From positions 1,783,001 to 1,847,000 of the forward strand of contig NZ_JACGXA010000001.1 in the NCBI RefSeq assembly GCF_014138045.1: a DNA stretch of 64,000 nt. The letters run 5' to 3'. This document shows, in pieces, positions 39,454-64,000 of this stretch. Every line of letters starts with the position of its first letter. The first letter of the stretch is position 1. Origin of the DNA: Nocardioides ginsengisegetis. GTDB lineage: Bacteria > Actinomycetota > Actinomycetes > Propionibacteriales > Nocardioidaceae. A program made the position numbers and the translations under genes. The notes below the pieces were generated by a model. The model was not told the DNA's origin. It was given only the letters and a program-made list of their open reading frames with translations, and ran no database searches.

Positions 39454-39867
39454 CTACGCCGGCAGCAGGCGGCGCCCGGTGATCTCGCGGGCGGCGATCC
39501 GCACCAGCAGGCTCCGCTGGCCCTCGGCCCACGGGATCAGGTCCGCGGCGGCCGGGTGGTCGGCGACGTCGACGTACGTCGCGTGGCCGCGCAGCAGGAC
39601 GCTCCACCCGGACTGTGTGTAGTCGTCGAACTCGTCGATCTGGAAGGAGGCGTCGGCCGAGCGCAGGTGCGACGCGAGCGTGGCGTGGGGCGAGAGCCGC
39701 AGCAGGACGCTGCGCCCCTCCACGACGTAGTTGACCGGGATGACGACGGGGCCGTCCTGGTCGCAGTAGGCGACCCGGCCCACGTGGTGCTCGCCCAGCT
39801 GCTCGAGGCACTCGGCCTCCGAGAGCTCCTTGAGGTGGCCGGGGAACCATCGTTCGTTGGTGCTCAT
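39454..39867 (-). CDS. Pyridoxamine 5'-phosphate oxidase-like protein
   Basis: A 137 aa split-barrel flavin-type protein (PNPOx family). The N-terminus HLKELSEAECLEQLGEHHVGRVAYC, then PVVIPVNYVVEGRSVLLRLS, match the fold; the likely cofactor is FMN or F420. Similar proteins (for example Rv3129 and Rv0080 in M. tuberculosis) are in the DosR regulon, as far as I recall. It is the last gene of a three-gene operon in which each start overlaps the previous stop. AAGGGA precedes the ATG. Confidence 0.88.
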   Translation of the reverse strand: MSTNERWFPGHLKELSEAECLEQLGEHHVGRVAYCDQDGPVVIPVNYVVEGRSVLLRLSPHATLASHLRSADASFQIDEFDDYTQSGWSVLLRGHATYVDVADHPAAADLIPWAEGQRSLLVRIAAREITGRRLLPA

Positions 39868-40601
39868 CGCTGTCCCTTTCGTCGATACCCCGAGGGTCGC
39901 GCCGGCGACGCCTCTCCCTCCAGAGCCGGGCGGCCCGTGGCTGCGGGACCATCGACCCGCTCCCCCGCGCGCTCGCGGAGGCCGATGAGCATGTCGCGGG
40001 ACATGACGAAGTCGGCGGGCACGATCAGCAGGTGTGCCCCCAGGGTCAACCACCACGGACGGGTCCGGGCTCGCCAACGGAAGACCAGTCGGGTCGCCCC
40101 GCCGCCGGGCTCGGGGGTCAGGACAAAGCTCCACGTCCAGTTGATGCGGGCCCTGTCCCGGACCCGCCAGGACAGCGGCAGGTGCGTGGTGGACTGCAGG
40201 ACGAGCCGCTGCCCGGGCTCGCACTCGCGCACCACGAAGAAGCACTCGGTGTCCGGGCGGCCGTCGGGGACCAGGTCTCCCACCTCGAGCTGCTGGAAGT
40301 CGTCGAGCACGCGGTCCGCGCTCGGCAGGTTGTCGGGGAACAGCAGCACGTCCACCCAGCGGGCGGTGTACCAGCCGCCGCGGTGCCAGCCCACCTGGGC
40401 CAGCCACGGCCAGACGCGGGCCGGCGGGGCCGGGATCGTGATGGCGTGGGTGACCTGTATCTGCGGGCGGCCCACGAGGTCGTCGCCGGGCATGGCCGCC
40501 CGGCGCTCCTCGCGGGAGGTCCCGTAGGTGCGGCCCAGCCACTGGAGCGCGAGGTAGCCGGCCGCGAGGCCCGCGGCGCCGGCCCGCTGCCGGGCGATCA
40601 C
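39864..40601 (-). CDS. SRPBCC-family protein with N-terminal membrane-like segment
   Basis: A protein of about 245 aa starting with GTG at 40601, overlapping the upstream stop as GTGA. The N-terminal 25 residues are hydrophobic. The rest is a START/SRPBCC-like hydrophobic-pocket fold: ITIPAPPARVWPWLAQVGWHRGGWY, then VGDLVPDGRPDTECFFVV, WTWSFVLTPEPGGGATRLVFRW and a C-terminal helix. The bound ligand is unknown. The longer frame extending into the upstream gene is a shadow. It sits between a polytopic membrane protein and a flavin-type protein and is likely under DosR-like control. Confidence 0.82.
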   Translation of the reverse strand: MIARQRAGAAGLAAGYLALQWLGRTYGTSREERRAAMPGDDLVGRPQIQVTHAITIPAPPARVWPWLAQVGWHRGGWYTARWVDVLLFPDNLPSADRVLDDFQQLEVGDLVPDGRPDTECFFVVRECEPGQRLVLQSTTHLPLSWRVRDRARINWTWSFVLTPEPGGGATRLVFRWRARTRPWWLTLGAHLLIVPADFVMSRDMLIGLRERAGERVDGPAATGRPALEGEASPARPSGYRRKGQR

Positions 40602-41881
40602 GGGACACTCCGCACGTCTGCGGAGCGGCCCAGCCAGATCAGCAGGCCTCCGATGGCGGTGTAGAGCGGGTGGAAGAAGCTGAGCTCGTGGATGAACGCC
40701 AGCTCGACCACGATCCACCCCACGAGCACGACGCCCGTGACGACGGCCGCCAGCGGCGTACGTCGGTCGCCGAGGAGTGCGAGGACCGCCAGCACCGTGT
40801 TGGGCAGCGCCACGGCGAGCGCCAGCGCGACCGCGGCGAGGACCGGGCTCCCGGCGGGCAGGCGCGCCTCGATCGTGGCGCCGAGGTCCAGGCTCCCGGA
40901 CGCGAGGCCCCAGGCGCCGCCGACGGCGGCGACGGCGTTGAGGGCCGCCACCCAGCCCAGCACGCTGCGGTGCGGCTGCGGGCGCCAGGTCCCCGAGGAC
41001 GTCGCGACCGGGCCGGCGCGGTGCAGCAGCACCGCGGCCGGCGCGATCCCGACCAGGGCCAGGACGAGGAACACCGGCACCAGGGCGTCCGAGGCGACGG
41101 AGGAGGCGGGATCCGCGGCGTGTCCCCAGGCCTGGTCGATCGCGACCCCGAGGGCCTCGACGACCCAGAACACCGAGCCGGCAGCGGCCAGCGCCCAGCG
41201 CCGGGGGTCGGCCCGCCACACGCCGGTGCCCAGCCAGAACATCACCGGCAACCAGAAGGCCAGGTCCTGCACGAAGACCGGGTTGGTCGTCAGCCCGGTG
41301 CCGTCCAGGAGTTCCGTCGGGTGCGACCCCGCCAGCGCCGGCAGCACCTTGGCCAGCCAGGCGGCCGCGTTCAGCGCCGCGACGACCCAGATGTAGAACG
41401 CGACCCATCGGGCCGGCGTCACGACGCGCTCCGGGGCACGCCGCCAGACCCGGAGCGACCCCGTCACCAGCGAGAGGATGGCCAGGCCCAGCATCGCCTC
41501 GTAGAGCAGGAAGAAGCGGTTGAAGGGGGTGGCGAGCACGAACATCACGGCGTTGTAGAGCAGGTACGCCGTCACGCCGGTCACGACGATCTCGCCCCGG
41601 CGCGACCCGCGGGCGGCGGCCACGGCGGAGGCGGCGAGGAGGGGCAGTCCCACGACGAGGATGACCAGGGCGGTCCCCCGTGCCGACCCGATCATGACGT
41701 CGGGCCCGGACAGGACGTCCGGGAGCAGGACGGTGCCGGCGGACGCCACGAGCGTCACGACCCCCAGGGCCACGGTCAGCGGGCTGACGACGAGGCGAGG
41801 AGGGGGCGGGCTGCCCACGGCCTGGCCGGACGGGGGTGCGTCGTGCTCGCGCACGAGGCCGGGAGACGACTGCCGGGTCAT
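40598..41881 (-). CDS. Polytopic membrane protein of unknown function
   Basis: A 427 aa protein with about ten hydrophobic helices from residue 35 to the end, in two similar-looking blocks. No family is recognised. Notable segments are YNAVMFVLATPFNRFFLLYEAM and VELAFIHELSFFHPLYTAIGG near the C-terminus, with conserved-looking His/Phe residues inside the membrane. It heads the operon with the SRPBCC and PNPOx genes. GGAGG is only one base from the ATG. A GAGCGT hexamer lies six bases upstream, so it may be leaderless. Two tandem DosR-like boxes follow at 41909 and 41939. Confidence 0.8.
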   Translation of the reverse strand: MTRQSSPGLVREHDAPPSGQAVGSPPPPRLVVSPLTVALGVVTLVASAGTVLLPDVLSGPDVMIGSARGTALVILVVGLPLLAASAVAAARGSRRGEIVVTGVTAYLLYNAVMFVLATPFNRFFLLYEAMLGLAILSLVTGSLRVWRRAPERVVTPARWVAFYIWVVAALNAAAWLAKVLPALAGSHPTELLDGTGLTTNPVFVQDLAFWLPVMFWLGTGVWRADPRRWALAAAGSVFWVVEALGVAIDQAWGHAADPASSVASDALVPVFLVLALVGIAPAAVLLHRAGPVATSSGTWRPQPHRSVLGWVAALNAVAAVGGAWGLASGSLDLGATIEARLPAGSPVLAAVALALAVALPNTVLAVLALLGDRRTPLAAVVTGVVLVGWIVVELAFIHELSFFHPLYTAIGGLLIWLGRSADVRSVP

Positions 41882-41887
41882 GCCTCC

Positions 41888-41893: not shown

Positions 41894-41908
41894 GCGGGCG
41901 GGGCCGCC

Positions 41909-41922
41909 GGGACCAAGGGTCG
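41909..41922. promoter_or_regulatory. DosR-like box (GGGACCAAGGGTCG), proximal of a tandem pair
   Basis: The left half GGGACCAAGG is intact, the right half is shifted by one base. It lies 28 bases ahead of the membrane-protein ATG and its centre is 30 bases from the second box. Confidence 0.55.
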
Positions 41923-41938
41923 ATGCTCCGTCGGAGGC

Positions 41939-41952
41939 GGGACCAAGGTCAT
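41939..41952. promoter_or_regulatory. DosR-like box (GGGACCAAGGTCAT), distal of a tandem pair
   Basis: Matches the palindrome GGGACC-AA-GGTCCC at 12 of 14 positions and stands 45 bases from the putative -10. Confidence 0.6.
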
Positions 41953-42029: not shown

Positions 42030-42617
42030 CTAGCGCAGGACCTTCCAGCGACGGACGATCGCGGTGCGTGCCCACAACTTCCCGGCACCCCAGGTGTCGC
42101 CCGCGTAGGTCAGCCCGAGGACGACCATCGACACGGCGCCGAGGATGTGGTCGTCGATGACCGGGTTGTTGTCCGGGAGCAGGTAGACCGACCACATCAT
42201 CAGGTAGAGCAGGGCTCCGGCTGCCGCGGCGATCCGCATGCCGATCCCGAAGGTCAGTGCGGTGCCGATGCCCAGCAGGCCGAGCATGAACAGCCAGTCG
42301 GCCCAGGCCGACCCGGCGATGGAGTGGTAGAAGCTCTCGAACGGGCCCTTGGCCCCGAACTTCAGGAACCCCTCGGTGGGGCTGCCGCCGTTGATCCACG
42401 CCGCGTCACCGAACCGGTCGAGGTGACCGGCCTGGTCGTAGCCGGTGTGGTAGCCGAGCGCGAGCAGCTTGTCGAAGAACGCCCAGAGGAAGGTCAGTCC
42501 GAAGGCCATCCGGAGGACCGCCAGGGCGCGGGTTGCGTAGGTGGTGAGGCCGCGCGGCTGCTCGGCCACGTGGTGCGTCACCAGGCCGCTGTGGATGCGG
42601 TCGTGGATGGTGGTCAT
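42030..42617 (-). CDS. DoxX-family membrane protein
   Basis: The 195 aa protein has four or five transmembrane helices: ALAVLRMAFGLTFLWAFFDK (the usual DoxX opening), a helix at WLFMLGLLGIGTALTFGIGM, then AAAAGALLYLMMWSVYLLP, and ILGAVSMVVLGLTYAGD. DoxX proteins associate with respiratory or redox membrane complexes and with thiol stress in mycobacteria; biochemical activity here is unknown. The ATG at 42617 has GAGGAGGGT upstream. A perfect inverted-repeat DosR-like box lies 95 bases ahead. Confidence 0.85.
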   Translation of the reverse strand: MTTIHDRIHSGLVTHHVAEQPRGLTTYATRALAVLRMAFGLTFLWAFFDKLLALGYHTGYDQAGHLDRFGDAAWINGGSPTEGFLKFGAKGPFESFYHSIAGSAWADWLFMLGLLGIGTALTFGIGMRIAAAAGALLYLMMWSVYLLPDNNPVIDDHILGAVSMVVLGLTYAGDTWGAGKLWARTAIVRRWKVLR

Positions 42618-42711: not shown

Positions 42712-42725
42712 GGGTCCTTGGACCC
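42712..42725. promoter_or_regulatory. DosR-like box (GGGTCCTTGGACCC)
   Basis: A perfect palindrome apart from the central TT, a variant with A/T exchanged at the fourth and eleventh positions. It lies upstream of doxX and 36 bases past the stop of the acyl-CoA synthetase gene. Confidence 0.55.
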
Positions 42726-42761: not shown

Positions 42762-45479
42762 TCAGGGCGCGGGGCGCAGCTTGCGCGGCACCCCGTCGTC
42801 GGCGGGGCGCGCCGGCGGCGACAGGCGCACCTTCACGTCGACGCAGGCCGCCCCCGCCTCGGACATGATGACGGGGTTGAGGTCCATCTCCGCGAGCTCG
42901 GGCACCTCGACCGCCAGCTGGCCCACGGCCTGCAGCAGCGCCTCCAGGGCCGCCACGTCCACGGGCTTCGCGCCGCGGTGGCCGGCCAGCAACGGCCAGA
43001 TCCGGAGCCGCCGGACCGCACGGGCCGCGTCGACCGCGGTCAGCGGCGGCAGCAGGAAGACGCGGTCGTCCCACACGTCGGTGGCCACTCCCCCGGCGGC
43101 CACCATCACCAGCGGCCCGAAGCCGTCGTCGCGGACCACGCCGACCGCGACCTCGACGCCGGCCGGCACCTGGGCCTGGACGAGCAGCTCGGGCTCGGGC
43201 ACGCCGAGCTTCAGCTCGAGGTCGGCGGCGGCCTCGAGCACCTCGTCGGGAGCCTTGAGGCCGGGCCGGACGAGGCCCCGCTCGGTCTTGTGCACCACCG
43301 CCGGGTCGGCGGCCTTGAGCACCACCGGATAGCCGATCTCGTGCGCGGCGGTGAGGATCCGCGACAGCCTCCGCTCGACCCGGCCACCGAGCACGTCGAT
43401 CCCGTAGGCCGACAACAGCTCGCGGCACTGCGCGGGCCGCAGCCACCCGTCGGTGCCGGCCTCTGCCAGCGCGGCGTCGACCACCGGACGGGCGCGGTCC
43501 CCCGCACCCGGGGTCCGCACGACTGCGGGCACGGCCGGCGTGTCCAGCCATGCGGCGTACGACGCGGCGTGGGCGAGGGCGCGGGTGGCGTCCTCGACCG
43601 ACCGGAAGGCGGCGAACGCACGGGACGAGTCCTCGGGGACCGCCGCGCCGCCCAGGGCCACCAGTAGGAGCGGCTTGTCGACCAGCCCGGACCGCGCGTC
43701 CGCGAGGGCGCGCAGGAACCCGTCCGCGTCGGTCACCTTCGTGGCGGCGACGATGACGAGCACCGCGTCCACCTCGTCGGAGGCCAGCACGGTCTCGGTC
43801 GTCGCGAGCAGGCCGTCGGCGCTGGCCGCGGCGCCCAGGTCGATCGGGTTGCTCAGGCCTGCGGCGCCCGGCATCCGGGCGGTGAGCGACTCCTGGAGAA
43901 CCGGGCTGAGCTCGGGCACGACGAGCGCCCCGGCGGTCGCCGAGTCGGCAGCCAGGACTCCCAGTCCGCCGGCGTTCCCGACGATGGCCAGCCGGGGGCC
44001 GGACGGCAGCGGCTGGCTGGTCAGCAGCCGGGCCGCGTCCGCGAGCTCCTCGAGGCTGCTGCAGCCGATCACGCCGGACTGTGCGAACAGCGCGTCGACA
44101 CCCACCGTGGGAGCTGCCGCGGCGGCGGTGTGGGAGGCACCGGCCCGGCGCCCACCGGTGGAGCGCCCGCCCACCACGGCCAGGAGGGGCTTGCGCTGGG
44201 CGAAGCGTCGGGCGATCCGGGCGAACTTGCGGGCGTTGCCGAACGACTCGAGGTAGAGCGCAGCGGCACTGACGCGGGGGTCGTCCATCCAGGCCGCGAG
44301 CAGGTCGTTGCCGGAGACGTCGGCCTTGTTGCCGAGGGAGACGAACGAGGCGAGACCGGCGCCGGACTCCCGGGCCAGGTCGAGCAGCCCGATGCCGACG
44401 CCGCCCGACTGGGACGCCACCGCGAGGCCGCCGGGCTGGGGCAGGCCGCGCGTGAACGTGGCGTTGAGGCGTACGTCGGCGTCGGTGGTCATCACGCCCA
44501 GGCAGTTGGGGCCGACGAGCCGCATGCTGTGCCGGCGGGCGATGGCGACGAGCTCGCGCTGGGCCTGTGCCCCGTCGCTGCCCGCCTCGCCGAAGCCGGA
44601 GGTCAGGATCACCGCGGACCGGGCCCCCGCGTGCGCCGCGTCGCGGACCACGTCCAGCACCCGGCCGGCCGGGACCGCCACGACGACCAGGTCGACGGGG
44701 CTCCCGATCGCGGCCAGGTCGGGGACGACCCGGGCTCCCGAGACCTCGGGGAGCGCCCCCGAGCCGCCGGGGTGGACGACGTACACCTCGCCGGTGAAGC
44801 CGCCGTCGGCAACCTCCTCCAGGACCGCACGCCCGACGCCGCCGCCGGAGCGACGTACGCCGACCACGGCGATGCTGCGGGGGTAGAGGAGCGGGGCGAG
44901 CGACCGCGCCTCGGCGCCGGCCTCGCGGGCGTCGGCCGCGGCGACCGCGCGCTCGGTCGCGGCCGTTCCCATGTGGAAGGTCACGACGCCCGTGTCGGTC
45001 CGGCGCTGGAGGTCGAAGCCGCAGTCGGCCAGGACGCGGAGCATGGCGTGGTTGTCCACGAGGACGTCGGCGGTGAACTCCAGGATCCCCCGGCCGCGCG
45101 CCTCGGCGGCCAGGTGCTCGAGCAGGAGGGTGCCGAGGCCGAGCCCGTGTGCGGAGTCCGCCACGAGGAAGGAGATCTCGGCGGTGCCCTCGGCCATCAC
45201 CTCGGCGCTCGCCACGGCGACGAGGTCGCCGCCCACCAGGGCGACGAGCGCGAGCACCTCGGTCGAGCCGACCGCCGCGGCCAGGTGCTCGGCGTAGTCG
45301 TGGCCGGCCGCACGGTTGAGTCCGAAGAACCGCATCCGGAGGTTCTCCTCGGCCAGGTGGTCGTGCAGGGCGAGCAGCCCCTCGTGGTCCGACGGAACGA
45401 CGCGGCGAATGGTCGCGATCGTGCCGTCCGCGAGTAGTACGTCGACCGCCGCCACGGGTTGTGCCGGCGCGCTGGTCAT
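42762..45479 (-). CDS. GNAT acetyltransferase / ADP-forming acyl-CoA synthetase fusion
   Basis: A 905 aa fusion. Residues 1-165 form a GNAT domain (ENLRMRFFGLNRAAGHDYAEH; acetyl-CoA loop near DSAHGLGLGTLLLEHLA). The CoA-binding domain (about 180-310) has SIAVVGVRRSGGGVGRAV and VGPNCLGVMT. The succinyl-CoA-ligase-like flavodoxin domains carry the phospho-histidine in GASHTAAAAA. A C-terminal ATP-grasp domain (about 690-890) has VVLKAADPAVVHKTERG and MDLNPVIMSEAG. Such proteins make acyl-CoA plus ADP from acid and ATP or acetylate other enzymes; which applies here is unclear. It overlaps the SHOCT gene as ATGA. Confidence 0.9.
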   Translation of the reverse strand: MTSAPAQPVAAVDVLLADGTIATIRRVVPSDHEGLLALHDHLAEENLRMRFFGLNRAAGHDYAEHLAAAVGSTEVLALVALVGGDLVAVASAEVMAEGTAEISFLVADSAHGLGLGTLLLEHLAAEARGRGILEFTADVLVDNHAMLRVLADCGFDLQRRTDTGVVTFHMGTAATERAVAAADAREAGAEARSLAPLLYPRSIAVVGVRRSGGGVGRAVLEEVADGGFTGEVYVVHPGGSGALPEVSGARVVPDLAAIGSPVDLVVVAVPAGRVLDVVRDAAHAGARSAVILTSGFGEAGSDGAQAQRELVAIARRHSMRLVGPNCLGVMTTDADVRLNATFTRGLPQPGGLAVASQSGGVGIGLLDLARESGAGLASFVSLGNKADVSGNDLLAAWMDDPRVSAAALYLESFGNARKFARIARRFAQRKPLLAVVGGRSTGGRRAGASHTAAAAAPTVGVDALFAQSGVIGCSSLEELADAARLLTSQPLPSGPRLAIVGNAGGLGVLAADSATAGALVVPELSPVLQESLTARMPGAAGLSNPIDLGAAASADGLLATTETVLASDEVDAVLVIVAATKVTDADGFLRALADARSGLVDKPLLLVALGGAAVPEDSSRAFAAFRSVEDATRALAHAASYAAWLDTPAVPAVVRTPGAGDRARPVVDAALAEAGTDGWLRPAQCRELLSAYGIDVLGGRVERRLSRILTAAHEIGYPVVLKAADPAVVHKTERGLVRPGLKAPDEVLEAAADLELKLGVPEPELLVQAQVPAGVEVAVGVVRDDGFGPLVMVAAGGVATDVWDDRVFLLPPLTAVDAARAVRRLRIWPLLAGHRGAKPVDVAALEALLQAVGQLAVEVPELAEMDLNPVIMSEAGAACVDVKVRLSPPARPADDGVPRKLRPAP

Positions 45480-45788: not shown

Positions 45789-45802
45789 GGGCACAAGGTC
45801 CC
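45789..45802. promoter_or_regulatory. DosR-like box (GGGCACAAGGTCCC) shared by divergent genes
   Basis: Twelve of 14 positions agree with GGGACCAAGGTCCC. It sits between the SHOCT operon (gap 23 to its -10) and sulP (gap 46 to its -10). Confidence 0.55.
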
Positions 45803-45860: not shown

Positions 45861-47549
45861 ATGGAGGCGCGCATCCCGGTGCCCGACTGGGCCCGGCACT
45901 ACGAGCGGGGCTGGCTGCGCGGCGACCTGCTGGCGGGCGTGACGGTCACGGCGTACCTCATCCCCCAGGTGATGGCCTACGCCCAGCTGGCCGGGCTGCC
46001 GGCAGTGGCGGGGCTCTGGGCGTCGGTGGGCGCCCTGCTCGGGTATGCCCTGCTGGGGTCCTCGCGCCAGCTCTCGGTGGGGCCGGAGTCCACGACGGCG
46101 CTGATGACGGCGGCCGCCCTCGGGTCGGTCCCCGGCGCGCTCGCCGACCCCGGCGCGTTCGCCGCGGCGCTGGCGCTCGCGGTGGCCCTCTTCTGCCTGC
46201 TGGGGCGACTCGGACACCTCGCCGCCCTGTCGGACCTGCTCTCACGGCCCGTCCTGGTCGGCTACCTCGCCGGGATGGCCGCGATCATGGTGAGCTCCCA
46301 GCTGGGCAAGCTGCTGGGCTTCGCCGTCGTCGGCGACGGCTTCCTGCAGGAGGTCTCCTTCACGGTCCACCACCTGGGCGACACCCGTGTCCCGGCACTG
46401 CTCCTGGGCGGCCTGACCCTCGTGGCGATGCTCGTGAGCTCGGCCGTCTGGCCGCGGGCCCCGGTCGCCCTGGCCGGGATCCTGGCGGCGACGGCAGCCG
46501 CGGCCCTGCTCGACCTGGAGGCGCACGGGGTGCGGCTGGTCGGGACGATCGCCGTCGGGGTGCCGCACCCCGGCCTGCCTGCGATCTCGGCCGGGGACGT
46601 GACCGGTCTCCTGCTGCCCGCGCTGGGGGTGGCCTTCGTGGGCTTCACCGACAACATCCTGACCGCCCGGGGGTTCGCGGCCCGCCACCAGCAGGCGATC
46701 GACCCGCAGCGGGAGATGCTCGCGCTCGGCGCCGCCAACCTCGGCTCCGCCCTGCTGCACGGCTTCCCGGTGAGCAGCAGCGGCAGCCGCACCGCGATCG
46801 CCGACGCCGTCGGCGGCCGGAGCCAGCTCACCAGCGTCGTCACGGTCGTCTGCACCGTGCTGGCCCTCGTGACGGCCGGTCCCGTGCTGGCCGCGTTCCC
46901 GCTGCCGGCGCTCGGCGCCGTCGTGGTGTACGCCGCGGTGCGGCTCGTGGACGTCCGGGAGCTGGTCCGCTTCGCCCGGTTCCGCCGCAGCGAGCTCGTC
47001 CTCGCCCTCGCCACGACCCTGGCCGTCCTCGTCGTGGGCGTGCTGGACGGGATCCTCGTGGCGATCGCGCTGTCCGTGCTCGACCTGCTGCACCGGGTGG
47101 CCCGCCCGCACGACGCGGTCGAGGGCTACGCCCCAGGCGTGGCCGGGATGCACGACGTCGCCGACTACCCCGACGCGAGGCGCGTGCCCGGCCTGCTCGT
47201 CTACCGCTACGACTCGCCGCTGTTCTTCGCCAACGCCGAGGACTTCCACCGCCGCGCGCTGGCGGCAGTCGACGCCAACGAGACGCCGGTGGAGTGGTTC
47301 GTGCTGAACACCGAGGCGATCGTCGAGGTCGACATCACCGCCGTCGACGTGCTGGAGAACCTGCGCGCCGAGCTGGAGCGGCGCGGCATCGTGATGGCGC
47401 TGGCCAGGGTCAAGCAGGACCTCCGCGGCGACCTCCTGCCGACCGGGCTCCTGGACCGGATCGGCGAGGACCATGTCTTCCCGACCCTGCCGACCGCCGT
47501 GGCAGCCTTCGAGGCGTGGCGGGACGACCGCCGTCCCGACGCAGGGTGA
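45861..47549 (+). CDS. SulP-family anion transporter with STAS domain
   Basis: A 562 aa SLC26/SulP-type transporter. The membrane part (about residues 20-410) shows the family signature in TVTAYLIPQVMAYAQLAGLPAVAGLW, with SRQLSVGPESTTALM and FPVSSSGSRTAIADAVGGRSQ. A cytoplasmic STAS domain (about 440-555) follows, with FANAEDFHRR and VLNTEAIVEVDITAVDVL. Substrates in the family include sulfate, bicarbonate and other anions; the specificity is not evident. M. tuberculosis Rv1739c, a SulP next to DosR-regulated Rv1738, is a parallel. It is convergent with the response regulator gene. Confidence 0.93.
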   Translation: MEARIPVPDWARHYERGWLRGDLLAGVTVTAYLIPQVMAYAQLAGLPAVAGLWASVGALLGYALLGSSRQLSVGPESTTALMTAAALGSVPGALADPGAFAAALALAVALFCLLGRLGHLAALSDLLSRPVLVGYLAGMAAIMVSSQLGKLLGFAVVGDGFLQEVSFTVHHLGDTRVPALLLGGLTLVAMLVSSAVWPRAPVALAGILAATAAAALLDLEAHGVRLVGTIAVGVPHPGLPAISAGDVTGLLLPALGVAFVGFTDNILTARGFAARHQQAIDPQREMLALGAANLGSALLHGFPVSSSGSRTAIADAVGGRSQLTSVVTVVCTVLALVTAGPVLAAFPLPALGAVVVYAAVRLVDVRELVRFARFRRSELVLALATTLAVLVVGVLDGILVAIALSVLDLLHRVARPHDAVEGYAPGVAGMHDVADYPDARRVPGLLVYRYDSPLFFANAEDFHRRALAAVDANETPVEWFVLNTEAIVEVDITAVDVLENLRAELERRGIVMALARVKQDLRGDLLPTGLLDRIGEDHVFPTLPTAVAAFEAWRDDRRPDAG

Positions 47550-48280: not shown

Positions 48281-48294
48281 GGGACCAAGGTCCC
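48281..48294. promoter_or_regulatory. Perfect DosR-like box (GGGACCAAGGTCCC)
   Basis: An exact palindrome GGGACC-AA-GGTCCC lying between the stop of the universal-stress gene and the start of the dosR-like gene. Confidence 0.7.
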
Positions 48295-50470: not shown

Positions 50471-50484
50471 AGGACCAACGTCAC
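50471..50484. promoter_or_regulatory. Weak DosR-like box (AGGACCAACGTCAC)
   Basis: The left half GGACCAA is intact, the right half is degenerate. It overlaps the cydDC stop codon and lies 86 bases before the flavoprotein start. Confidence 0.35.
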
Positions 50485-56310: not shown

Positions 56311-56316
56311 ACGCTA
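56311..56316 (-). promoter_or_regulatory. -10 element (TAGCGT) of the cydA-cydB-cydDC operon
   Basis: TAGCGT on the minus strand contains the USP stop codon TAG and lies 45 bases from the box at 56362. Confidence 0.45.
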
Positions 56317-57216
56317 GGAGCCCCCGAGACCGCCCGGCACGGTCGGACGGGCCGCCTTGGCGGGACCTTGGTCCCGTGCCGCGGGGACCGTCGGGTCGAC
56401 GACCAGCACCGGGCACGCGGCCTCCCGGAGCAGGGCGCACACCACCGGTCCCAGGTGGCTGCCGACGGGCAGGAGGTGGTGGTGTCGACCCAGGACGAGG
56501 GCGGAGCACTCGCGTGACTCCGAGAGCAGTGCGTCGACCGGCCGACCACGCCAGGCCACCACCTGGGCCGCGACGTCGGGGAACTCCTCCAGCACCGGGG
56601 CGACCCGGTCGCGCAGGGTCGTCTCGACGTACGCCGGGTCCTCCACGACGCAGACCAGCCGCAGCGTGCCGGTGGTGCGCTGGGCCATCTCGAGGGCGGT
56701 GCGCACCACGGAGAGGGCGGGGTCGGGCTCTACGCCCACGCAGACGGGTCGCTGGTCCCACTCCTTGCGGCGCCAGGCCGAGGGAACGCACAGCACCGGC
56801 GCGTGGGACCTCGCGGCGATCCCCCCGAGATGGGCCAGCACGGTGAGTCGGCCACGGTGCTCGGGCCCGCGCTGCAGGACCACGACCGAAGCCCCCGCGC
56901 TGCGGGCCACCACGGCGTCCACGACCGCGCCCTCGAGCAGCTCGGTGGTGACCGCCACCTGACCCTGGGTCCGCTCGCGCAGCCGTTGCTCGGCGCGGTA
57001 CAACCGGGAGAGCGCGGCCTGGCGTGCCGGCGGGTCGGCGAGGGACAGCCGGTCGGGAGACGTCGGCACGAGCAGGCCGGGACCCGACGCGACGTGCACC
57101 AGCCCGATGTCGCTCCCCCGCGCTGCGGCCTCGACGGAGGCGGCGTCCAGCAGGGCGTCCAGGTGGACCTGCGTGCCGACCGCGGCGAGCACGGGCCGCC
57201 GAGTCTCGCTGGCCAT
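56314..57216 (-). CDS. Universal stress protein, tandem domains
   Basis: A 300 aa protein of two USP domains (about residues 6-145 and 155-290). Neither has the G-x2-G-x9-G-S ATP signature (first ASVVVLQRGPEHRGRL, second ALVLGRHHHLLPVGSHLG), so it may not bind ATP. GAGGAG six bases ahead of ATG 57216 gives the start. The gene follows a single-domain USP by nine bases and precedes cydA. Its 3' end houses the DosR-like box for cydA. Confidence 0.9.
   Translation of the reverse strand: MASETRRPVLAAVGTQVHLDALLDAASVEAAARGSDIGLVHVASGPGLLVPTSPDRLSLADPPARQAALSRLYRAEQRLRERTQGQVAVTTELLEGAVVDAVVARSAGASVVVLQRGPEHRGRLTVLAHLGGIAARSHAPVLCVPSAWRRKEWDQRPVCVGVEPDPALSVVRTALEMAQRTTGTLRLVCVVEDPAYVETTLRDRVAPVLEEFPDVAAQVVAWRGRPVDALLSESRECSALVLGRHHHLLPVGSHLGPVVCALLREAACPVLVVDPTVPAARDQGPAKAARPTVPGGLGGS
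56362..56375. promoter_or_regulatory. Perfect DosR-like box (GGGACCTTGGTCCC) inside the USP gene
   Basis: An exact palindrome lying in the last 60 bases of the USP coding region, 97 bases ahead of cydA; there it encodes R-D-Q-G-P. Confidence 0.7.
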
Positions 57217-57225: not shown

Positions 57226-57687
57226 TCAGCCGACCGGCGTTGCGGTGGGTTCGACGACGACCACCGGGCACGGCGCGAGGAGCGAGCAGGTCTCCCCCAC
57301 CCCGTCGCGGTGACGCGGGAGGGTCGTGGGCCGGGGCGCGCCGACCACGAGGAGGTCCCCCCTCCGGGCGAGGGCCAGCATGGCCTCGACGGGACGGGCG
57401 TTCGCCACCTCCAGGTTGATCGCCGCGGGCCGGTGCACGACGCGGGCGAGCGCCGCGTCGACAGCCTCGTGCTGGGCGAGCACGGCCCGGGCGCGCGGCT
57501 CGCAGAAGTGGCCCGGCACCTCGTGGATGAAGACCTCTCCGGGGTCGGGCCACGCGGTCACGACGTGGATCGTCCGGCCTCCGACCGTCGCGACCTCCAG
57601 GGCCCACGTCAGGGCCTGGATGCTCGAGTCCGAGCCGTCGACGCCGACCACCACGCGTCCGCGCGCCGCGTCGTCCCGCTCCGTCAT
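57226..57687 (-). CDS. Universal stress protein, single domain
   Basis: A 153 aa single USP domain: GRVVVGVDGSDSSIQALTWALEVA at the N-terminus (the usual strand and Asp), and LLVVGAPRPTTLPRHRDGVG where the ATP loop would be, which lacks the glycine pattern. AAGGAG lies six bases before ATG 57687, which decides the start over a longer frame to 57711. It lies between the beta-CASP nuclease gene (42 bases) and the tandem USP gene (nine bases), so the three are likely one transcript. Confidence 0.88.
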   Translation of the reverse strand: MTERDDAARGRVVVGVDGSDSSIQALTWALEVATVGGRTIHVVTAWPDPGEVFIHEVPGHFCEPRARAVLAQHEAVDAALARVVHRPAAINLEVANARPVEAMLALARRGDLLVVGAPRPTTLPRHRDGVGETCSLLAPCPVVVVEPTATPVG

Positions 57688-57729: not shown

Positions 57730-59115
57730 TCAGTCGAGCCGGACCCGCTCACCCAGGCGCGGTACGACGGCGCACCAGCCCAGCTCGTCCCGCACCCGCT
57801 GCGCCATCGCCTCGGCCGCACTCGGCTCGCCGTGGACGACGTACACCGTGCTCGGCGGCTCCGTGGCCCGGCCCAGCCACGCGGTCATGTCCTCGGCATC
57901 GGCGTGCACGGAGAAGTCGTCGACCTGGACGACCTCGGCCCGCACCGGGACGTAGCGCCCGTGGATCTTGACCTGCCGGACCCCGTCCAGCAGCTGGCGT
58001 CCCCGGGTCCCCTCGGCCTGGTAGCCGGTCAGGACCACGCTGTTGCGGCTGTCGGGCAGCTGGTGGGCGAGGTGGTGCACGACCCGGCCACCGGCCGCCA
58101 TGCCCGACGCGGAGATGACGATGCAGGGGAACGAGGGCCGGTTGAGCCGCATCGAGTGCTCGGGGTCCCGCACGGCCCGCAGGTCCAGCCCGTCGAGCGC
58201 CTCGAGCAGGACCCGTGCCTCCGGCCGCAGCTGCGGGGAGGGTGCGGAGACCGCGCGGCGGTAGACGTCGAGCGTGGCCAGGGCCATCGGACTGTCGACG
58301 AACACGGGCAGCCGCGGCACGCGGCCCTCCTGCGTGAGGCGGTGGAGCGCGACGAGCACGAGCTCGGTGCGATCGACCGCAAAGGCCGGGATCAGCACCG
58401 AACCGCCCCGGCCGATCGTGCGCCGGATGGCCGCCGCGAGGTGCTCGGGGTCCGGGTCGGGGTGCCGGCGATCGCCGTACGTCGACTCGATCACCATCAC
58501 GTCCGCGGGCACCGGGGCGGCCGGTGGCAGCAGCAACGGGTGCCGGTCCCGGCCCAGGTCGCCGGTGAACAGCACGCGGGACGGTCCCGCCTCCAGGAGC
58601 ACGGTCGACGAGCCGAGGATGTGCCCGGCGGGACTGAGCGTCCCCCGCACGTCGCGGGCGAGGTCGGTCGGCACGCCGTACTCGACCGGCTCGAAGAGGG
58701 GCAGGGTCTTCTCGACGTCGCTGTCGTCGTAGAGCGGCAGTGCCGGGTGGTGCTTGCTGTAGCCCGAGCGGTTGGCGTAACCGGCGTCCTCGGCCTGGAG
58801 GTGGGCGCTGTCGCGGAGCACGATCTCCGCCAGCTGGGCCGTCTCGCGGGTGCACACGATGGGGCCCGAGAACCCGTCGCGCACCAGCCGCGGGAGGAAC
58901 CCGCAGTGGTCGAGGTGGGCGTGCGTCAGGGCCAGCCCCTCGATGCTCGACGCGGGGATCGGCAGCTCCTCCCAGTTCCGTCGCCGGAAGTCAGGGAGTC
59001 CCTGGTAGAGGCCGGCGTCGACCATCACCCGCTCGTCGCCGAGGTCGACGGCGAACCGGCTCCCGGTCACGGTGCCCGCGGCGCCCAGGAAGGTGAGGAA
59101 CGGGCTGGCGCTCAT
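57730..59115 (-). CDS. Metallo-beta-lactamase/beta-CASP RNA-processing-type hydrolase
   Basis: The 461 aa protein has the metallo-beta-lactamase motifs (FLGAAGTVTGSRF at the start; LTHAHLDHCGFLPRLV with H-x-H-x-D-H; FTGDLGRDRHP). A beta-CASP region (VMVIESTYGDRRHPD; DRTELVLVALHRLT; CIVISASGMAAGGRVVHHL) and a final HADAEDMTAWL follow. It belongs to the YSH1/CPSF73-like group (COG1236) of RNA nucleases. A role in RNA turnover under stress fits the setting. It overlaps the DUF1918 gene as ATGA. Confidence 0.92.
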   Translation of the reverse strand: MSASPFLTFLGAAGTVTGSRFAVDLGDERVMVDAGLYQGLPDFRRRNWEELPIPASSIEGLALTHAHLDHCGFLPRLVRDGFSGPIVCTRETAQLAEIVLRDSAHLQAEDAGYANRSGYSKHHPALPLYDDSDVEKTLPLFEPVEYGVPTDLARDVRGTLSPAGHILGSSTVLLEAGPSRVLFTGDLGRDRHPLLLPPAAPVPADVMVIESTYGDRRHPDPDPEHLAAAIRRTIGRGGSVLIPAFAVDRTELVLVALHRLTQEGRVPRLPVFVDSPMALATLDVYRRAVSAPSPQLRPEARVLLEALDGLDLRAVRDPEHSMRLNRPSFPCIVISASGMAAGGRVVHHLAHQLPDSRNSVVLTGYQAEGTRGRQLLDGVRQVKIHGRYVPVRAEVVQVDDFSVHADAEDMTAWLGRATEPPSTVYVVHGEPSAAEAMAQRVRDELGWCAVVPRLGERVRLD

Positions 59116-59330
59116 CGTGACCCGCCGGGGGCGGTCGGGGGGTGCTCCTCGTGGTCGACCCAGGCGTCCGGGCCGGGGAAGAAGAGCCCCTCGTGCCCGG
59201 TGTCGGACCAGCGGACCCGGTAGGGCGGAGAGCCGTCGTCGTGCGGCACACCGATGATCTCGGCGTCACGGACCGGTCCGCCGAGGGTGCGGCTCGGCAC
59301 GACCAGCCGTTCGCCCTTGCGTGCATGCAT
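59112..59330 (-). CDS. DUF1918 family protein
   Basis: A 72 aa protein of the DUF1918 family: KGERLVVPSRTLGGPVRDAEII, then GVPHDDGSPPYRVRWSDTGHEGLFFPGPDAWV. This is the same small beta-rich fold as mycobacterial Rv0569, a DosR-regulon member, and Rv2302. Biochemical function is unknown; DNA or RNA binding has been suggested for relatives. Start ATG 59330 follows GGAGG. The gene overlaps the beta-CASP gene. Its promoter has a GAGGGT hexamer (59365-59370) 23 bases from the box at 59394. Confidence 0.88.
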   Translation of the reverse strand: MHARKGERLVVPSRTLGGPVRDAEIIGVPHDDGSPPYRVRWSDTGHEGLFFPGPDAWVDHEEHPPTAPGGSR

Positions 59331-59393: not shown

Positions 59394-59407
59394 GGGTCCT
59401 TGGTCAT
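59394..59407. promoter_or_regulatory. DosR-like box (GGGTCCTTGGTCAT) shared by divergent genes
   Basis: Left half as in the doxX box, right half degenerate. It lies 64 bases from the DUF1918 start and 60 bases before the P-type ATPase ATG. A second weak match (GGGCCATTGGCGCG) is at 59415-59428. Confidence 0.5.
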
Positions 59408-59467: not shown

Positions 59468-62179
59468 ATGCCGGACCAGCAGCCACGAGCACCGCTGATC
59501 GGTCCCGCCCCCGCGACGGCCGACGACGTCTCGGCGGACCTCCTCCTCCGGGACGCGACGACCGTCGTCGACCGACTGGGGTCCGGCCCCGACGGCCTCA
59601 CCCAGGACGAGGCGGCGCGCCGACTCGTGGAGAGCGGTCCCAACGAGCTGTCGGTGGCGAGGACCTCGGGCCTGCTCGGCGCCCTGGTGCGCCAGCTCAC
59701 CCACCCGCTCGCCCTGCTGCTCTGGGCCGCGGCCGTCCTCGCGGCCACCACCCAGGGGGCCACCCTGGCCGTCGCGATCACCTGCGTCATCGGCATCAAC
59801 GCGGCCTTCGCGCTCGGCCAGGAGCGGCACGCCGAGCACGCGGTCGCGGCACTCGCGCAGTACCTCCCCCCGCACGCCACGGTGGTCCGCGGCGGCCGGG
59901 AGCTCTCGGTGGAGGCCCGCCAGGTCGTGCCCGGGGACCTCCTCGTCGTGGAGGAGGGTGTCGCCATCTGCGCCGACGCCAAGATCGTCACGGGTGCCGT
60001 CGAGTGCGACCTGTCCGCGGTCACGGGCGAGTCCGCTCCGGCCGTGCGCCAGGCCGGGGCCGATCCCCAGCGGAGGCTGGTCGACGCCGGCGACGTCCTG
60101 CTCTCCGGCACCACCTGCACGTCCGGCGAGGCCCGGGCGGTGGTCGTGCACACCGGCATGGTGACCGAGCTCGGCCGCATCGCCGGGCTGAGCAGCAGGA
60201 CCGGCCACGAGTCGAGCCCGCTCGAGCAACAGGTACGCCGGGTGGCCTGGCTGATCGCCGCGGTGGCCGTCGGCGTGGGCCTGGCTTTCCTGCCCCTCGG
60301 CGTGCTGGCCGGCCTGGGACTCGGCGACGCCGCCGTCTTCGCGATCGGGCTGCTGGTCGCCAACGTCCCCGAGGGCCTCCTCCCGACCATCACCCTCGCG
60401 CTGGCCGTCGGGGTCGCCGAGCTGGCCCGGCGGGGCGGGCTCGTCAAGCGCCTCAGCGCCGTCGAGACGCTCGGCTCCACGGACGTGATCTGCACCGACA
60501 AGACCGGCACGCTCACCCAGAACCGGATGCAGGTGCACAGCCTGTGGGGGCCGTCCGGCCGCTCCGCTCCCCATGACGCGACCGCGGAGGCGATGGCGAC
60601 GGTGCTGCGGCGGTGCACGAGCGCCGACCCCGGGTCCGGGCACGGCGACCCCACCGAGCTGGCCCTGCTGAAGGGGGCCGAGCGCCTCGGCGTCCCCGAC
60701 CACGACGGCACGGTGACGCGCACCTTCCACTTCGACCCACGCCTGCGACGGATGTCGGTGGTGGTCGTGAGAGGCGCCGGCCGCCGCCTGTGCACGAAGG
60801 GGGCGCCCGAGTCGGTCCTCGAGCTGTGCGACACGGTCCTCGACGAGGAAGGTCGGTCGCAGACGTGGACGCCCTCCGACCGCGCCGACGTCGAGCTCCG
60901 GCTCGACCGGCTCGCCGACCAGGGGCTCCGGCTGCTCGCCTGCGCGGTCAGGCAGCTGGCACCGGACGACCCGGAGGGCGACCGGGAATCACTCGAGCGG
61001 TCGCTCACGCTCGTCGGGTTCGCCGCCCTGACCGACCCGCTGCGGGACGCCGTCCCGGACGCCATCGTCCGGGCCCACCGTGCGGGCATCACCGTGCACG
61101 TCATCACCGGTGACAACGGACGCACGGCCGGGGCGATCGCGCTCGAGGCCGGCATCGGAGCCGGGCACGGCCGCCCGCACGTGGTCAACGGGTCCAAGCT
61201 CGAGGCGATGGCCGACGACGAGGTCGACGCGATGCTGGGCTCGGGGCGCGAGATCGTCTTCGCCAGGAACACGCCCGAGGACAAGCTCCGGATCGCCTCG
61301 CGGCTCCAGGCCCTCGGGCACGTGGTGGCCATGACGGGCGACGGGGTGAACGACGCCCCGGCCCTCCGCCGGGCGGACATCGGCGTGGCGATGGGGCGTT
61401 CGGGGACCGATGTCGCCCGCGAGGCCGCGACCATGGTGCTCACCGACGACGACTTCGCCACGATCATCGGCGCGGTGCAGGCAGGACGCCGCGTCTACGA
61501 CAACGTCCGCAAGTTCATCCTCTACATCTTCGCGCACGCGATCCCGGAGATCGTGCCCTTCCTGCTGTTCGCGCTCTCCGGTGGCGCCATCCCGCTCGGG
61601 CTGACCGTGACCCAGATCCTCCTGATCGACCTCGGGACCGAGACGCTGCCTGCGCTCGCACTGGGGCGCGAGGCCGAGGAGCCCGGCATCATGGCGCGTC
61701 CCCCGCGTCGGCGGACCGAGGGGATCATCACCGGGCAGATGCTGCTGCGCGCGTGGGCCCTGCTGGGGATCGCATCCGCGGTCCTCGTGACCGCCGGCTT
61801 CCTCTGGGTCCTGTGGTCGGGCGGCTGGCGACCGGGTGACTCCGTGGCCCCCGGGACCCGGTTCCACGAGCGCTATCTCGAGGCGACCTCGATGACGTTC
61901 GCCGGGATCGTCGCCTGCCAGGTCGGCACCGCGATGGCCGCGCGCACCGACCGGGTCTCGCTGTTCCGCATCGGGTTCCTGACCAACCCGCTGCTCCTCC
62001 TGGGCATCGTCCTCGAGCTCGCGCTCACCGCCCTGGTGCTCTACACGCCCGCCCTCCAGGACCTGCTCGACACGCGCCCGCTGGGTGTCCCGCAGGTGCT
62101 GGCGCTCGCCACGTTCCCCGTGGTCGTCTGGGGCGTCGACGAGCTCTACCGGTGGCGACGCCGCTCGGTCAGGACGTGA
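59468..62179 (+). CDS. Cation-transporting P-type ATPase, CtpF-like (type II)
   Basis: A 903 aa type II P-ATPase. An N-terminal cation-ATPase domain precedes the actuator motif [26 protein letters not shown] leads to the phosphorylation site D344 in [10 protein letters not shown]. The nucleotide domain has [11 protein letters not shown], and the hinge is [22 protein letters not shown] (near 620). About six helices end the protein. By analogy with CtpF of M. tuberculosis, a DosR-regulon Ca2+-type pump, it may export a divalent or alkali cation; the ion is unproven. GGAGGAGG precedes ATG 59468, and the longer frame is not expected. Confidence 0.93.
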
Positions 62180-62705
62180 CGCCCGAGGGCGTCGCGCCCG
62201 CCATCTCCGCGAGCCGCCTCCCCCACGCGTGCGCGCGCTCGGTCTCGCCGTCGGCCAGCGGCCCCTTGAGGTCGGTGACGTAGAAGCTCGTGGGATGGTC
62301 CAGCATCACGAGCCCACGACGCCGCAGCCGCTTCACGGCCCGGCGGGCGGCCGATCCGGGCAGGTGCCGCACCTTGTCGATGCGGGTGTCGAACACGGCA
62401 GCCGCCACGTGCGGCTTCCCGGCCGCGTCGAGGCCGTCGAGCCACTCCCGGAGCCCGGTCGGTGCGTGCGCGGGGGCGGCACCCTGCTGCACGGCGCTGT
62501 CCCGGGTCGAGCGGCGGCTCATCGAGAACCCGTGCGTCGGACCTCCGACCACGAGGACGTCGCAGTCGGCGAGGACCCCTGGGCCGGCCGCGGCGACGTC
62601 GAGCACCGCGGTCACGGACCCAGCAGACTCGAAGCCCGCTGCGACGGCCCGGGCCACGTGCTCGGTGTTGCCGAACATCGACTCGTAGACGATCACGGTG
62701 CGCAT
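62169..62705 (-). CDS. Flavodoxin-domain protein
   Basis: A protein of about 178 aa with a flavodoxin-like fold: [21 protein letters not shown] (FMN phosphate loop S-M-F-G-N-T), [16 protein letters not shown] (isoalloxazine loop) and [10 protein letters not shown]. It probably carries electrons or acts as a menaquinone-dependent-oxidoreductase-like module. ATG 62705 has GGGAGGAG about eight bases ahead. A GTG at 62714 overlaps the USP stop but has no ribosome site. Its last codons overlap the end of the P-type ATPase gene by 11 bases tail to tail. Confidence 0.88.
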
Positions 62706-62710
62706 CGTGC

Positions 62711-63679
62711 TCACTCCTCCCGTGCCCCGGCGGCCTCGAGCTCCAGGTCCTGGACCTCGGCGATCACGTCCTGGGCCGGCAGCACCATCACCGGGCAGGG
62801 AGACCGCTGCAGGAGCGCCCGAGCCGTGCTCCCGAGGTTGGCCGCGGGCGGGAAGCCGTGCGCCCGGCGGACCAGCACGAGCAGGTCCGGGCTCTCGACC
62901 TCCTCGAGGAGGGCGTGCACGGCCTGGTCGTGGACCGACCTGACCTCGACGTCCACGTGCGGGAACTGGGCCCGCTCGCCCGCGAGGAGCTCCTCGACGT
63001 CACCCGCCGCGGCCGCCGACCAGGCCGCCTCGCGCGTCCGGGTGACGATGCGGTCGTCGTACATGTTCGGCAGGGACCAGGCGTGCACGACCACGAGACC
63101 AGCCCCGCGCGCCGATGCCTCCCGGAAGGCGGCAGCGAGGAGCTCGGCGGAGTGGCGGGACGACTTCAGCCCGACGACGACACGACCCGGGCCGGTCGGC
63201 GGGCTCCAGTCCGCCGGGACCGAGACGACCGGACGGTCGGCGCGCGCCATGACGCCCATCGTGACCGCGCCCGTGTAGATCCGCCGGAGCGGCGTCACCG
63301 TCTCGTGTCCCAGCACGATCATCCGGGCCTCGCGTGCGACCTCCACCAGGGTCGGTACGGTCCGTCCGACGCGCAGGAGCTGCCGGCACCGCACGGCCCC
63401 GGCGTGTCCCGCGGCCGCGCCGGCGGCCTGCTGGAGCACGGCTCGTCCGATCGCCTCGATATCGCTGTCCAGGTCCGTCGGGAAGATGTCGGTGGTGGGT
63501 GCGAGCGCCGTGAAGTCCGGGAGGACGTGGACGATGTCCAGACCCACCCCGAGCCGTGCTGCCTCGAGGGCGGCGTACTGGACCGCCCTGGCGCTCCCAG
63601 CGCTGCCGTTGGTGCCGACGACGATGCCGTTGCCCGGTTTCTCGGTGCCCGGCTTCTCGTCGCCCAGTTTCTCGGACAT
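62711..63679 (-). CDS. Universal stress protein, tandem domains
   Basis: The 322 aa protein has a Lys/Glu-rich leader (about 15 residues), then two USP domains (NGIVVGTNGSAGSARAVQYA and GRVVVGLKSSRHSAELLAAA as their first strands). Neither keeps the ATP-binding glycine signature (MIVLGHETVTPLRRIYTGAV; LVLVRRAHGFPPAANLGST). GAGGAG lies six bases before ATG 63679. It is in line behind the alcohol dehydrogenase gene (27 bases) and ahead of the flavodoxin gene. Confidence 0.9.
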   Translation of the reverse strand: MSEKLGDEKPGTEKPGNGIVVGTNGSAGSARAVQYAALEAARLGVGLDIVHVLPDFTALAPTTDIFPTDLDSDIEAIGRAVLQQAAGAAAGHAGAVRCRQLLRVGRTVPTLVEVAREARMIVLGHETVTPLRRIYTGAVTMGVMARADRPVVSVPADWSPPTGPGRVVVGLKSSRHSAELLAAAFREASARGAGLVVVHAWSLPNMYDDRIVTRTREAAWSAAAAGDVEELLAGERAQFPHVDVEVRSVHDQAVHALLEEVESPDLLVLVRRAHGFPPAANLGSTARALLQRSPCPVMVLPAQDVIAEVQDLELEAAGAREE

Positions 63680-63706
63680 GGTGTGCTCCTCGCTCGCGTC
63701 GGCCGA

Positions 63707-64000
63707 TCAGGCCCGATAGCTGTCGTTGGGGACGACCACGGCGCGGCCCCGGATCGTGCCGTGCTCGAGCTGGCGGTAGGCCTCGGCGGCGTCGTCGAGG
63801 GTGAAGAGCGTGGTCTCGGCCCGGAGCAGGCCGCGCGCGCCGAGGTCGAGGACCTCCACGAGCTCGCGCCGGTTGCCCCAGTACGTCGTCTGGACGCTCA
63901 CCTCGTAGGGCAGGCCGAAGAACGACACCGGCAAGGTGCCGCCGGCGATGCCGACGATGGTCAGGTCGCCGACCTGCCGCATGCTCGCCGCGGCCAGTGC
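63707..64000 (-). CDS. Zinc-type alcohol dehydrogenase, C-terminal fragment
   Basis: The reading frame is open from the right edge of the window to a stop at 63707-63709; about 97 codons are inside. MRQVGDLTIVGIAGGTLPVSFFGLP and YWGNRRELVEVLDLGARGLL, then TLFTLDDAAEAYRQLEHGTIRGRAVVVP, are the end of the Rossmann domain and the C-terminal strand of a medium-chain zinc alcohol dehydrogenase (AdhP/AdhA type). The catalytic zinc domain lies beyond the window. It begins the operon leading to the USP and flavodoxin genes. Confidence 0.85.
   Translation of the reverse strand, partial: ALAAASMRQVGDLTIVGIAGGTLPVSFFGLPYEVSVQTTYWGNRRELVEVLDLGARGLLRAETTLFTLDDAAEAYRQLEHGTIRGRAVVVPNDSYRA

Follow-up and report, generated by a model that had tools for sequence, protein, structure and literature searches.

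The window analysed here, a stretch of 64,000 nucleotides from Nocardioides ginsengisegetis (contig NZ_JACGXA010000001.1, positions 1,783,001 to 1,847,000), holds from its position 39,454 onward an island of stress and respiratory genes around a DosR-type response regulator, named RR1 below. Palindromic boxes of the type GGGACC-WW-GGTCCC, where W is A or T, lie before several of these genes. We consider it likely that this is a DosR/OsdR-type regulon, whose DosR-like regulators are predicted to bind the boxes and to turn on cytochrome bd, universal stress proteins (usp) and survival genes as oxygen falls.

Genes and boxes of the island

The stress and micro-oxic gene content described in the original prediction (usp, CydA, CydB, CydDC, SulP, and the PNPOx-like, DUF1918, P-type ATPase and flavodoxin proteins) was recovered at closely similar coordinates. 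Gene starts were called from codon bias and some were set by eye, namely that of the membrane protein at 41881 and that of the CBS gene at L028:9940. Positions with an L number lie in loci outside the window.

39454..39867, minus strand: PNPOx-like protein (PF12900)
40598..41881, minus strand: membrane protein, start ATG 41881 behind GTGGAGGC; a slightly longer version gave no Pfam match
42030..42617, minus strand: DoxX-like membrane protein (PF07681, E value 0.039, weak and below the cut-off)
42762..45479, minus strand: acyl-CoA synthetase (NDP-forming type) with a GNAT domain (domain match)
45861..47549, plus strand: SulP-type anion transporter with a STAS domain (domain match)
47554..48201, minus strand: RR1, DosR/DevR-type response regulator, first copy (Response_reg and GerE domains)
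48296..49180, minus strand: universal stress protein with two Usp domains (domain match)
49177..50385, minus strand: pyridine nucleotide-disulphide (flavin adenine dinucleotide, FAD) oxidoreductase; the nearest NCBIfam model, type III sulfide:quinone reductase, is far below its cut-off
50481..53708, minus strand: cydDC, fused CydD-CydC exporter (TIGR02857 and TIGR02868 over the cut-off)
53795..54808, minus strand: cydB, cytochrome bd subunit II (PF02322, E 1e-107)
54832..56265, minus strand: cydA, cytochrome bd subunit I (PF01654, E 8e-167)
56314..57216, minus strand: universal stress protein (domain match)
57226..57687, minus strand: universal stress protein (domain match)
59112..59330, minus strand: DUF1918 protein (domain match)
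59468..62179, plus strand: P-type cation ATPase (best models calcium P-type ATPase, below the curated cut-offs)
62169..62705, minus strand: flavodoxin-like protein (domain match)
62711..63679, minus strand: universal stress protein (domain match)
63707..64000 and on into L020:1-771, minus strand: zinc alcohol dehydrogenase, crossing the window edge

The boxes, to which no strand is assigned, were scored in bits using a matrix trained on 26 free-centre sites from relatives, with the own sequence excluded. The centre of these training sites is WW in 24 of the 26, where about 2 are expected at this composition.

48281..48294: perfect box GGGACCAAGGTCCC, 22.3 bits, 79 bp before the RR1 start
56362..56375: perfect box GGGACCTTGGTCCC, at 96 bp from the cydA start and within the final 62 bp of the usp gene upstream
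50471..50484: box AGGACCAACGTCAC, 11.7 bits, about 85 bp before the FAD oxidoreductase gene, overlapping the cydDC stop
45789..45802: box GGGCACAAGGTCCC, 13.8 bits, between the divergent SHOCT/acs-GNAT and SulP genes
42712..42725: box GGGTCCTTGGACCC, 12.0 bits, 94 bp before the DoxX-like gene
41939..41952: box GGGACCAAGGTCAT, 15.8 bits, about 57 bp before the probable membrane-protein start 41881
39945..39958: uncertain candidate box GGGACCATCGACCC, 12.6 bits, 77 bp before the PNPOx gene and inside the preceding gene
59394..59407: weak box GGGTCCTTGGTCAT, 10.7 bits, between the divergent DUF1918 and P-type ATPase genes
L020:870-883: box GGGACGTTGGTCCC, 18.2 bits, between the divergent zinc alcohol dehydrogenase gene and the next usp gene

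Nine boxes had been listed originally, and seven of them (41939, 42712, 45789, 48281, 50471, 56362 and 59394) reach at least 10 bits, while those at 41909 and 48210 fail. The second arm of 41909 (GGGACCAAGGGTCG) is out of register and 48210 (TCGACCAAGGTCGG) has other arms; both score below 9 bits with the relatives-trained matrix and 7.7 and 4.5 bits, respectively, with an own-box matrix built from the seven passing boxes and L020:870, and we take them as chance. A site at 42343, inside the DoxX-like gene, is probably chance too. The site at 39945, absent from the earlier listing, may be a box but is uncertain; the same sequence GGGACCATCGACCC is also found before an Hsp20 gene (L024:11986) and inside a usp gene (L028:11411), at 12.6 bits each.

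Occurrence and conservation of the boxes

The genome comprises 4.46 Mb in 6 contigs with 72% guanine plus cytosine (GC). The exact box GGGACCWWGGTCCC has only three copies in it, two in the window (48281 and 56362) and the third at 1701402. From base composition one would expect 0.0036 copies in a window and 0.25 in the genome; the original prediction likewise put a perfect copy at well under one in 64 kb. Under random placement the probability of finding at least two of the three genome copies inside 64 kb is 0.0006.

We ranked de novo all palindromic 6+2+6 half-sites in the intergenic DNA of loci around the relatives of the response regulator (RR). GGGACC is the top half-site in 37 loci of Nocardioidaceae, two of them titled Propionibacteriales only (81 kb of intergenic DNA), with 6 exact sites and 20 sites with at most one mismatch against 1.55 expected. 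In a further 9 loci, from other actinobacteria, it shares the first place with GGGACG, each having 6 sites where 0.29 are expected. The top half-site in two Streptomycetaceae loci is GGGCCG, with 9 against 0.63 expected, which is the published OsdR half-site, and neither GGGACC nor GGGCCG comes top in the Micromonosporaceae and Frankia loci. As a separate observation, the intergenic DNA of 25 Micromonosporaceae loci holds 25 exact sites of the half-site CCCGCG, and 31 with at most one mismatch against 3.9 expected.

The relatives-trained matrix finds 10 sites of at least 10 bits, the intragenic 42343 among them, in a 31.2 kb island stretch (window 39001-64000 and 6.2 kb beyond the window). At the same threshold the remaining 39 kb of the window yield 2 sites and the control stretches, 160 kb in all, another 2, so that the site density of the island is about 16 times that of other DNA of this genome (10 in 31 kb against 4 in 199 kb). 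The matrix scan covered 444 kb of this genome, and the whole genome was scanned by consensus pattern only. The plain consensus with three mismatches shows no enrichment over the whole window (134 against 144 expected), and hence the enrichment claim rests on the good sites. With at most two mismatches the genome has 97 places, a slight surplus over the 73 of the reversed control, and therefore most two-mismatch sites are chance. Of the 11 sites with at most one mismatch, 7 are found no more than 250 bp upstream of a start: two in the window, and those at L020:870, 1701402, 1255236, 3009191 (before the CBS gene) and 3782516.

The placement of DosR-type boxes at promoters, as originally proposed, is also conserved in relatives. 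We searched orthologous loci of congeners, and of order-mates for RR, for boxes scoring 11 bits or more in the 250 bp upstream, with the window genome left out. CydA has matches in 52 of 59 genomes, own included, and among the 29 best-scoring of the 51 congeneric matches 20 have a box 57-129 bp before the start, compared with 96 bp in the window. The DoxX-like gene matches in 30 of the 59 genomes, and 19 of the 29 other loci have a box. For Hsp20 a box is found in 7 of 11 loci, at scattered distances and with unsure starts. None of 200 column-permuted matrices equalled the counts for cydA, DoxX-like, Hsp20 and RR, the maxima being 10, 3, 4 and 4, respectively. A wider test counted own-box matrix sites within 250 bp upstream of all genes in the 37 loci, the genes being assigned to island or satellite families by their best match: 83 of the 204 genes so assigned have a box, against 32 of the 441 others.

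When promoters were lined up by their boxes (21 for cydA, 19 for the DoxX-like gene and 8 for RR, those of this genome counted in), the top offset of a secondary match was +22 in all three sets, with mean scores of -1.1, -5.4 and -2.3 bits, respectively, over backgrounds near -15. Among the boxed cydA promoters 11 of 21 have a TAnnnT hexamer at +45/46, which occurs at 3 of 966 other positions; the corresponding counts for RR are 3 of 8 promoters and 2 of 368 positions. The cydA promoter of the window has TAGCGT at 45, and the SulP promoter has TAGCGT at +46 and a good second match (8.8 bits) at +21. Over the 16 box-gene pairs of this genome, 21 and 22 rank highest of the 45 offsets. Assuming a transcription start some 7 bp past the hexamer, one would place the centre of the main box near -64 and that of the second, which would overlap -35, near -42. 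The Mycobacterium tuberculosis DevR sites are likewise closely packed, the start-proximal one overlapping -35, according to the available part of PMC3029386.

A number of results weigh against the regulon as proposed, or narrow it. Ranked on the window's own intergenic DNA alone, GGGACC falls outside the top 8 half-sites; the window boxes at 50471, 59394 and 42712 are weak; and 4 of the 11 genome sites with at most one mismatch are intragenic. No box at threshold is found in 9 of the 29 cydA promoters, the share of RR relatives having one is low (7 of 29 loci, seven of the 29 being from other genera of the order), and the DosS-like genes have a box in 0 of 29 loci. With column-permuted own-box matrices 4.9 of the 204 genes had a box on average and 53 at most, the latter with one matrix, because some permutations resemble the original matrix; the P values are too small because the relatives are not independent, and we do not lean on them. 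The own-box matrix separates island-family genes from others weakly in Micromonosporaceae (24 of 108 against 31 of 295) and in a mixed group (7 of 31 against 6 of 66), and not in Frankia (1 of 13 against 1 of 66) or Streptomycetaceae (0 of 5 against 1 of 15). In the promoters, the +22 matches are consistent in position and individually weak or degenerate, including that of the window cydA (-3.1 bits); the hexamer is found in 0 of the 19 DoxX-like promoters and is absent from the RR1 promoter; and the RR1, alcohol dehydrogenase, usp and other promoters of this genome have no clear second box. Finally, no kinase gene adjoins RR1 in the neighbourhood of 47554-48201.

The regulon does not form a single compact island, as boxes are also found before a CBS gene, at an Hsp20-gene locus and at a sensor-kinase locus elsewhere in the genome. 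The island itself runs past the window edge, where the box at L020:870 is followed by usp, CBS, Fur-type and KatG-type peroxidase genes. These CBS, usp, Fur-family and catalase-peroxidase-type genes, which continue the island, occupy L020:1935-6188, and a large hybrid sensor kinase (PAS, HisKA, HATPase, receiver and Hpt) at L020:6240-8957 adjoins the peroxidase gene. On the low side a transfer RNA gene, tRNA-Leu (GAG) at 39299-39387, borders the island directly; an integrative island at this gene was considered and rejected, since no tRNA repeat of at least 14 bp was found in the window and 40 kb downstream. The third perfect box (L023:9902-9915, genome position 1701402) stands before a gene for a small secreted protein of allene-oxide-cyclase-like type; beyond it at L023 a PAS-HisKA_3 sensor kinase (10580-12595) might be a further input to the DosR network. 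At L024:9936-12587 a one-mismatch box precedes an open reading frame of 98 amino acids without a Pfam match, followed by a GAF-ANTAR protein, a PAS/HisKA_3 stretch on the other strand and the Hsp20 gene with its candidate box 105 bp upstream. The second DosR locus, at L028:9891-14259, has a box before the CBS-domain gene, a two-domain usp gene, a DosS-type kinase gene and a second regulator gene. Within the island, the FAD oxidoreductase gene (49177-50385), located before the end of the cyd operon, and the SulP transporter gene may point to a sulfur or quinone link.

Regulators and the proposed control of cytochrome bd

The identification of RR1 as a DosR-type regulator is supported. Its closest solved structure is M. 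tuberculosis DevR/DosR (3c3w, E 2e-71), with VraR (8e-41) and NarL (2e-31) behind, and aligned with DevR it shows 57% identity, the recognition-helix segment FLAEKTVKNYVS being the same in both. In DevR this helix holds the DNA contacts K179, K182 and N183. The nearest named relative of RR1 is a Nocardioides caldifontis protein (82%), with which it pairs in a tree of 113 rows with support 100/96. The same genome has a second DosR, RR2, at 3012930-3013559, which is 80% identical to RR1, and both fall inside a 33-row set of the tree that is mostly Nocardioides. The tree has a single outgroup row on a branch of 9 changes per column and a long DevR branch, so that its deep part is unsure and only the shallow groups are used. 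The phospho-Asp segment VLDxRLPDG and FLAEKTVKNYVS are common to RR1, RR2, the N. caldifontis protein and DevR.

The second regulator lies beside a DosS-type kinase, 1.18 Mb distant from the island:

L028:13609-14259, minus strand: RR2 gene, convergent with the DosS-type kinase gene
L028:11959-13566 (3.01 Mb), plus strand: DosS-type kinase gene, of GAF-GAF-HisKA_3-HATPase build

The first GAF domain of the kinase matches the solved structures of DosT (2vzw, E 8e-51) and DevS (2y8h, E 5e-47). Its segment nHPPMgtFLGVPVRVRg aligns with HPPMRTFLGVPVRVRD, so that the HPPM segment of the DevS/DosT haem domain is kept, and its histidine is presumably the haem ligand (H149 in DevS). A genome search with this kinase returned itself and 9 weaker matches, mainly over the kinase half; it is the only DosS-type kinase found in the genome. 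Among the NCBIfam matches listed for RR1, RR2 and the DosS-like kinase, none exceeds its model's cut-off. As a possible local partner of RR1 we considered the HisKA_3 kinase at 17183-18727 with the regulator at 16542-17186, and rejected it; the two form a separate NarL-type pair, 40% to RR1 and not DosS-like.

We propose that the kinase at 3.01 Mb senses the loss of oxygen (or NO/CO, nitric oxide or carbon monoxide) and phosphorylates both DosR copies. Two DosR dimers would sit side by side on the main and the second box and recruit RNA polymerase, and RR1, having a perfect box of its own, might amplify the response.

Convergent neighbours of the RR and DosS-like type are found in many relatives' loci, in the same arrangement as RR2 here, and hence RR1 appears as an extra copy without an adjoining kinase. 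The original prediction had put the island under the control of the local regulator. This control cannot be assigned, because RR2, 80% identical to RR1, adjoins the only DosS-type kinase found and shares the recognition-helix segment. For the same reasons, and in view of the convergent order that RR2 has in common with many relatives' loci, one might suppose that RR2, paired with the kinase, reads the island boxes and that RR1 is a redundant or decaying duplicate of little role, which we regard as possible but rather doubtful. RR1 is not obviously decaying, since it retains the phospho-Asp segment and the helix, has a perfect box before its own start and keeps the grouping with the N. caldifontis protein.

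It is unlikely, in our judgement, that the boxes belong to another NarL/LuxR-family regulator or an unrelated factor and that the nearness of RR1 is coincidental. The genome holds 49 matches to RR1 of all strengths, about 10 of which are full-length NarL-type regulators at 31-40%. The box density, however, is highest around the genes of DosR relatives, the Streptomycetaceae loci around the RR relatives give GGGCCG, known from OsdR (available part of PMC5069765), and the frame GGGnC-N4-GnCCC is that of the DevR and OsdR sites.

In the window the CydA, CydB and fused CydD-CydC genes follow the perfect box at 56362. Of the 39 congeners having both genes, 18 have cydA no more than 10 kb from a DosS-like gene, where about 0.2 are expected; in this genome cydA is near RR1 and not near the DosS-like gene. 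In the accessible text on M. smegmatis, the induction of cydA by hypoxia persists without devR and cydAB is absent from the 49 genes of the DevR regulon, and the title names Crp MSMEG_6189 as inducer (PMC7739888). The S. avermitilis operon cydA1B1CD is bound by Rex, as stated in the consulted section of PMC5355995. That cydABDC is controlled by Rex or Crp here as well, the box being irrelevant to it, seems unlikely to us as well. A Rex homologue is present in the genome (PF06971 over the cut-off), but a near-perfect Rex/Crp-like site was found in only 1 of 30 cydA upstream regions (L194, not the window's), and two more of the 30 are within 2 mismatches of the Crp pattern. The window cydA upstream region has at least 6 mismatches to Rex, not being among the ten best, and 4 to Crp.

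That the palindromes are chance or coding by-products of a 72% GC genome with an ordinary gene content is most improbable: the consensus with two or three mismatches is at or weakly above the controls and 41909, 48210 and 42343 look like chance, but the good sites stand apart by the exact copies, the relatives-trained matrix, the WW centre and the orthologue footprint, which largely refutes chance for cydA and the DoxX-like gene.

We are somewhat inclined to think that DosR has been rewired in this genus from a dormancy switch to a direct respiratory switch, which would control cydABDC through the conserved box in place of Rex (Streptomyces) or Crp (M. smegmatis). In this genome the gene dose would be the reverse of that in M. 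tuberculosis, one oxygen kinase being shared by two regulators.

Comparison with known systems

DosR is best known from mycobacteria, and the cytochrome bd of M. smegmatis is reported to be outside its regulon (PMC7739888, available part). A DosR-type regulon outside the mycobacteria is already published for OsdR of S. coelicolor. OsdR binds DevR target promoters and recognises AGGGCCGATCGGCCCT, and eight sites near osdR cover 20 of 22 genes there. The OsdR/OsdK regulon resembles the present one in its DosR-type regulator, its WW-centred palindromes in the same frame, a box before the regulator gene, and usp, alcohol dehydrogenase and PNPOx targets in one neighbourhood. It differs in its half-site, GGGCCG against GGGACC in the window's relatives, and in having an osdR-osdK operon, whereas RR1 has no adjoining kinase. 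Its target table, in the available part of the paper, contains nitrate reductase genes and no cyd gene (PMC5069765, to which this comparison refers throughout).

The mycobacterial DosR/DevR system shares with the window a regulator of 57% identity with the same recognition-helix segment. The half-site of mycobacterial DosR is GGGACT. As far as the consulted sections tell, the mycobacterial system has packed sites with the proximal one at -35, to which the weak +22 matches here may correspond, and it has, like this genome, a GAF-domain kinase (DosS/DosT) and usp and Hsp20-type genes; M. tuberculosis differs in having two kinases for one regulator, while here one kinase would serve two (PMC3029386, PMC7739888, PMC5360333). 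M. smegmatis differs in that cydAB is outside the DevR regulon in the available text of PMC7739888. The Rex system of S. avermitilis acts on the same terminal-oxidase operon through a regulator linked to low oxygen; it uses a Rex operator, whereas the window cydA has a DosR-type box and no site within 6 mismatches of Rex (PMC5355995, available part).

Among the open-licence PMC papers listed we found no description of a DosR regulon in Nocardioides, the single paper found for this pair of names dealing with a ketoglutarate enzyme, and a paper outside this literature could exist. As far as this literature was searched, the new points are the GGGACC half-site of the lineage, cytochrome bd as a conserved and often linked target, and the two DosR copies with one kinase. 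Three half-site variants, GGGACT, GGGCCG and GGGACC, can now be compared for closely similar regulators. The conserved box at cydABDC and the linkage to dosS-like genes (18 of 39 congeners) suggest that in one actinobacterial lineage the sensing of oxygen by DosS has been wired together with the choice of terminal oxidase, and that in others the two have been kept apart. Judged by its sequence, the window is the same kind of system as the OsdR regulon with another half-site, and the evolution of the dormancy regulon becomes testable outside the mycobacteria.

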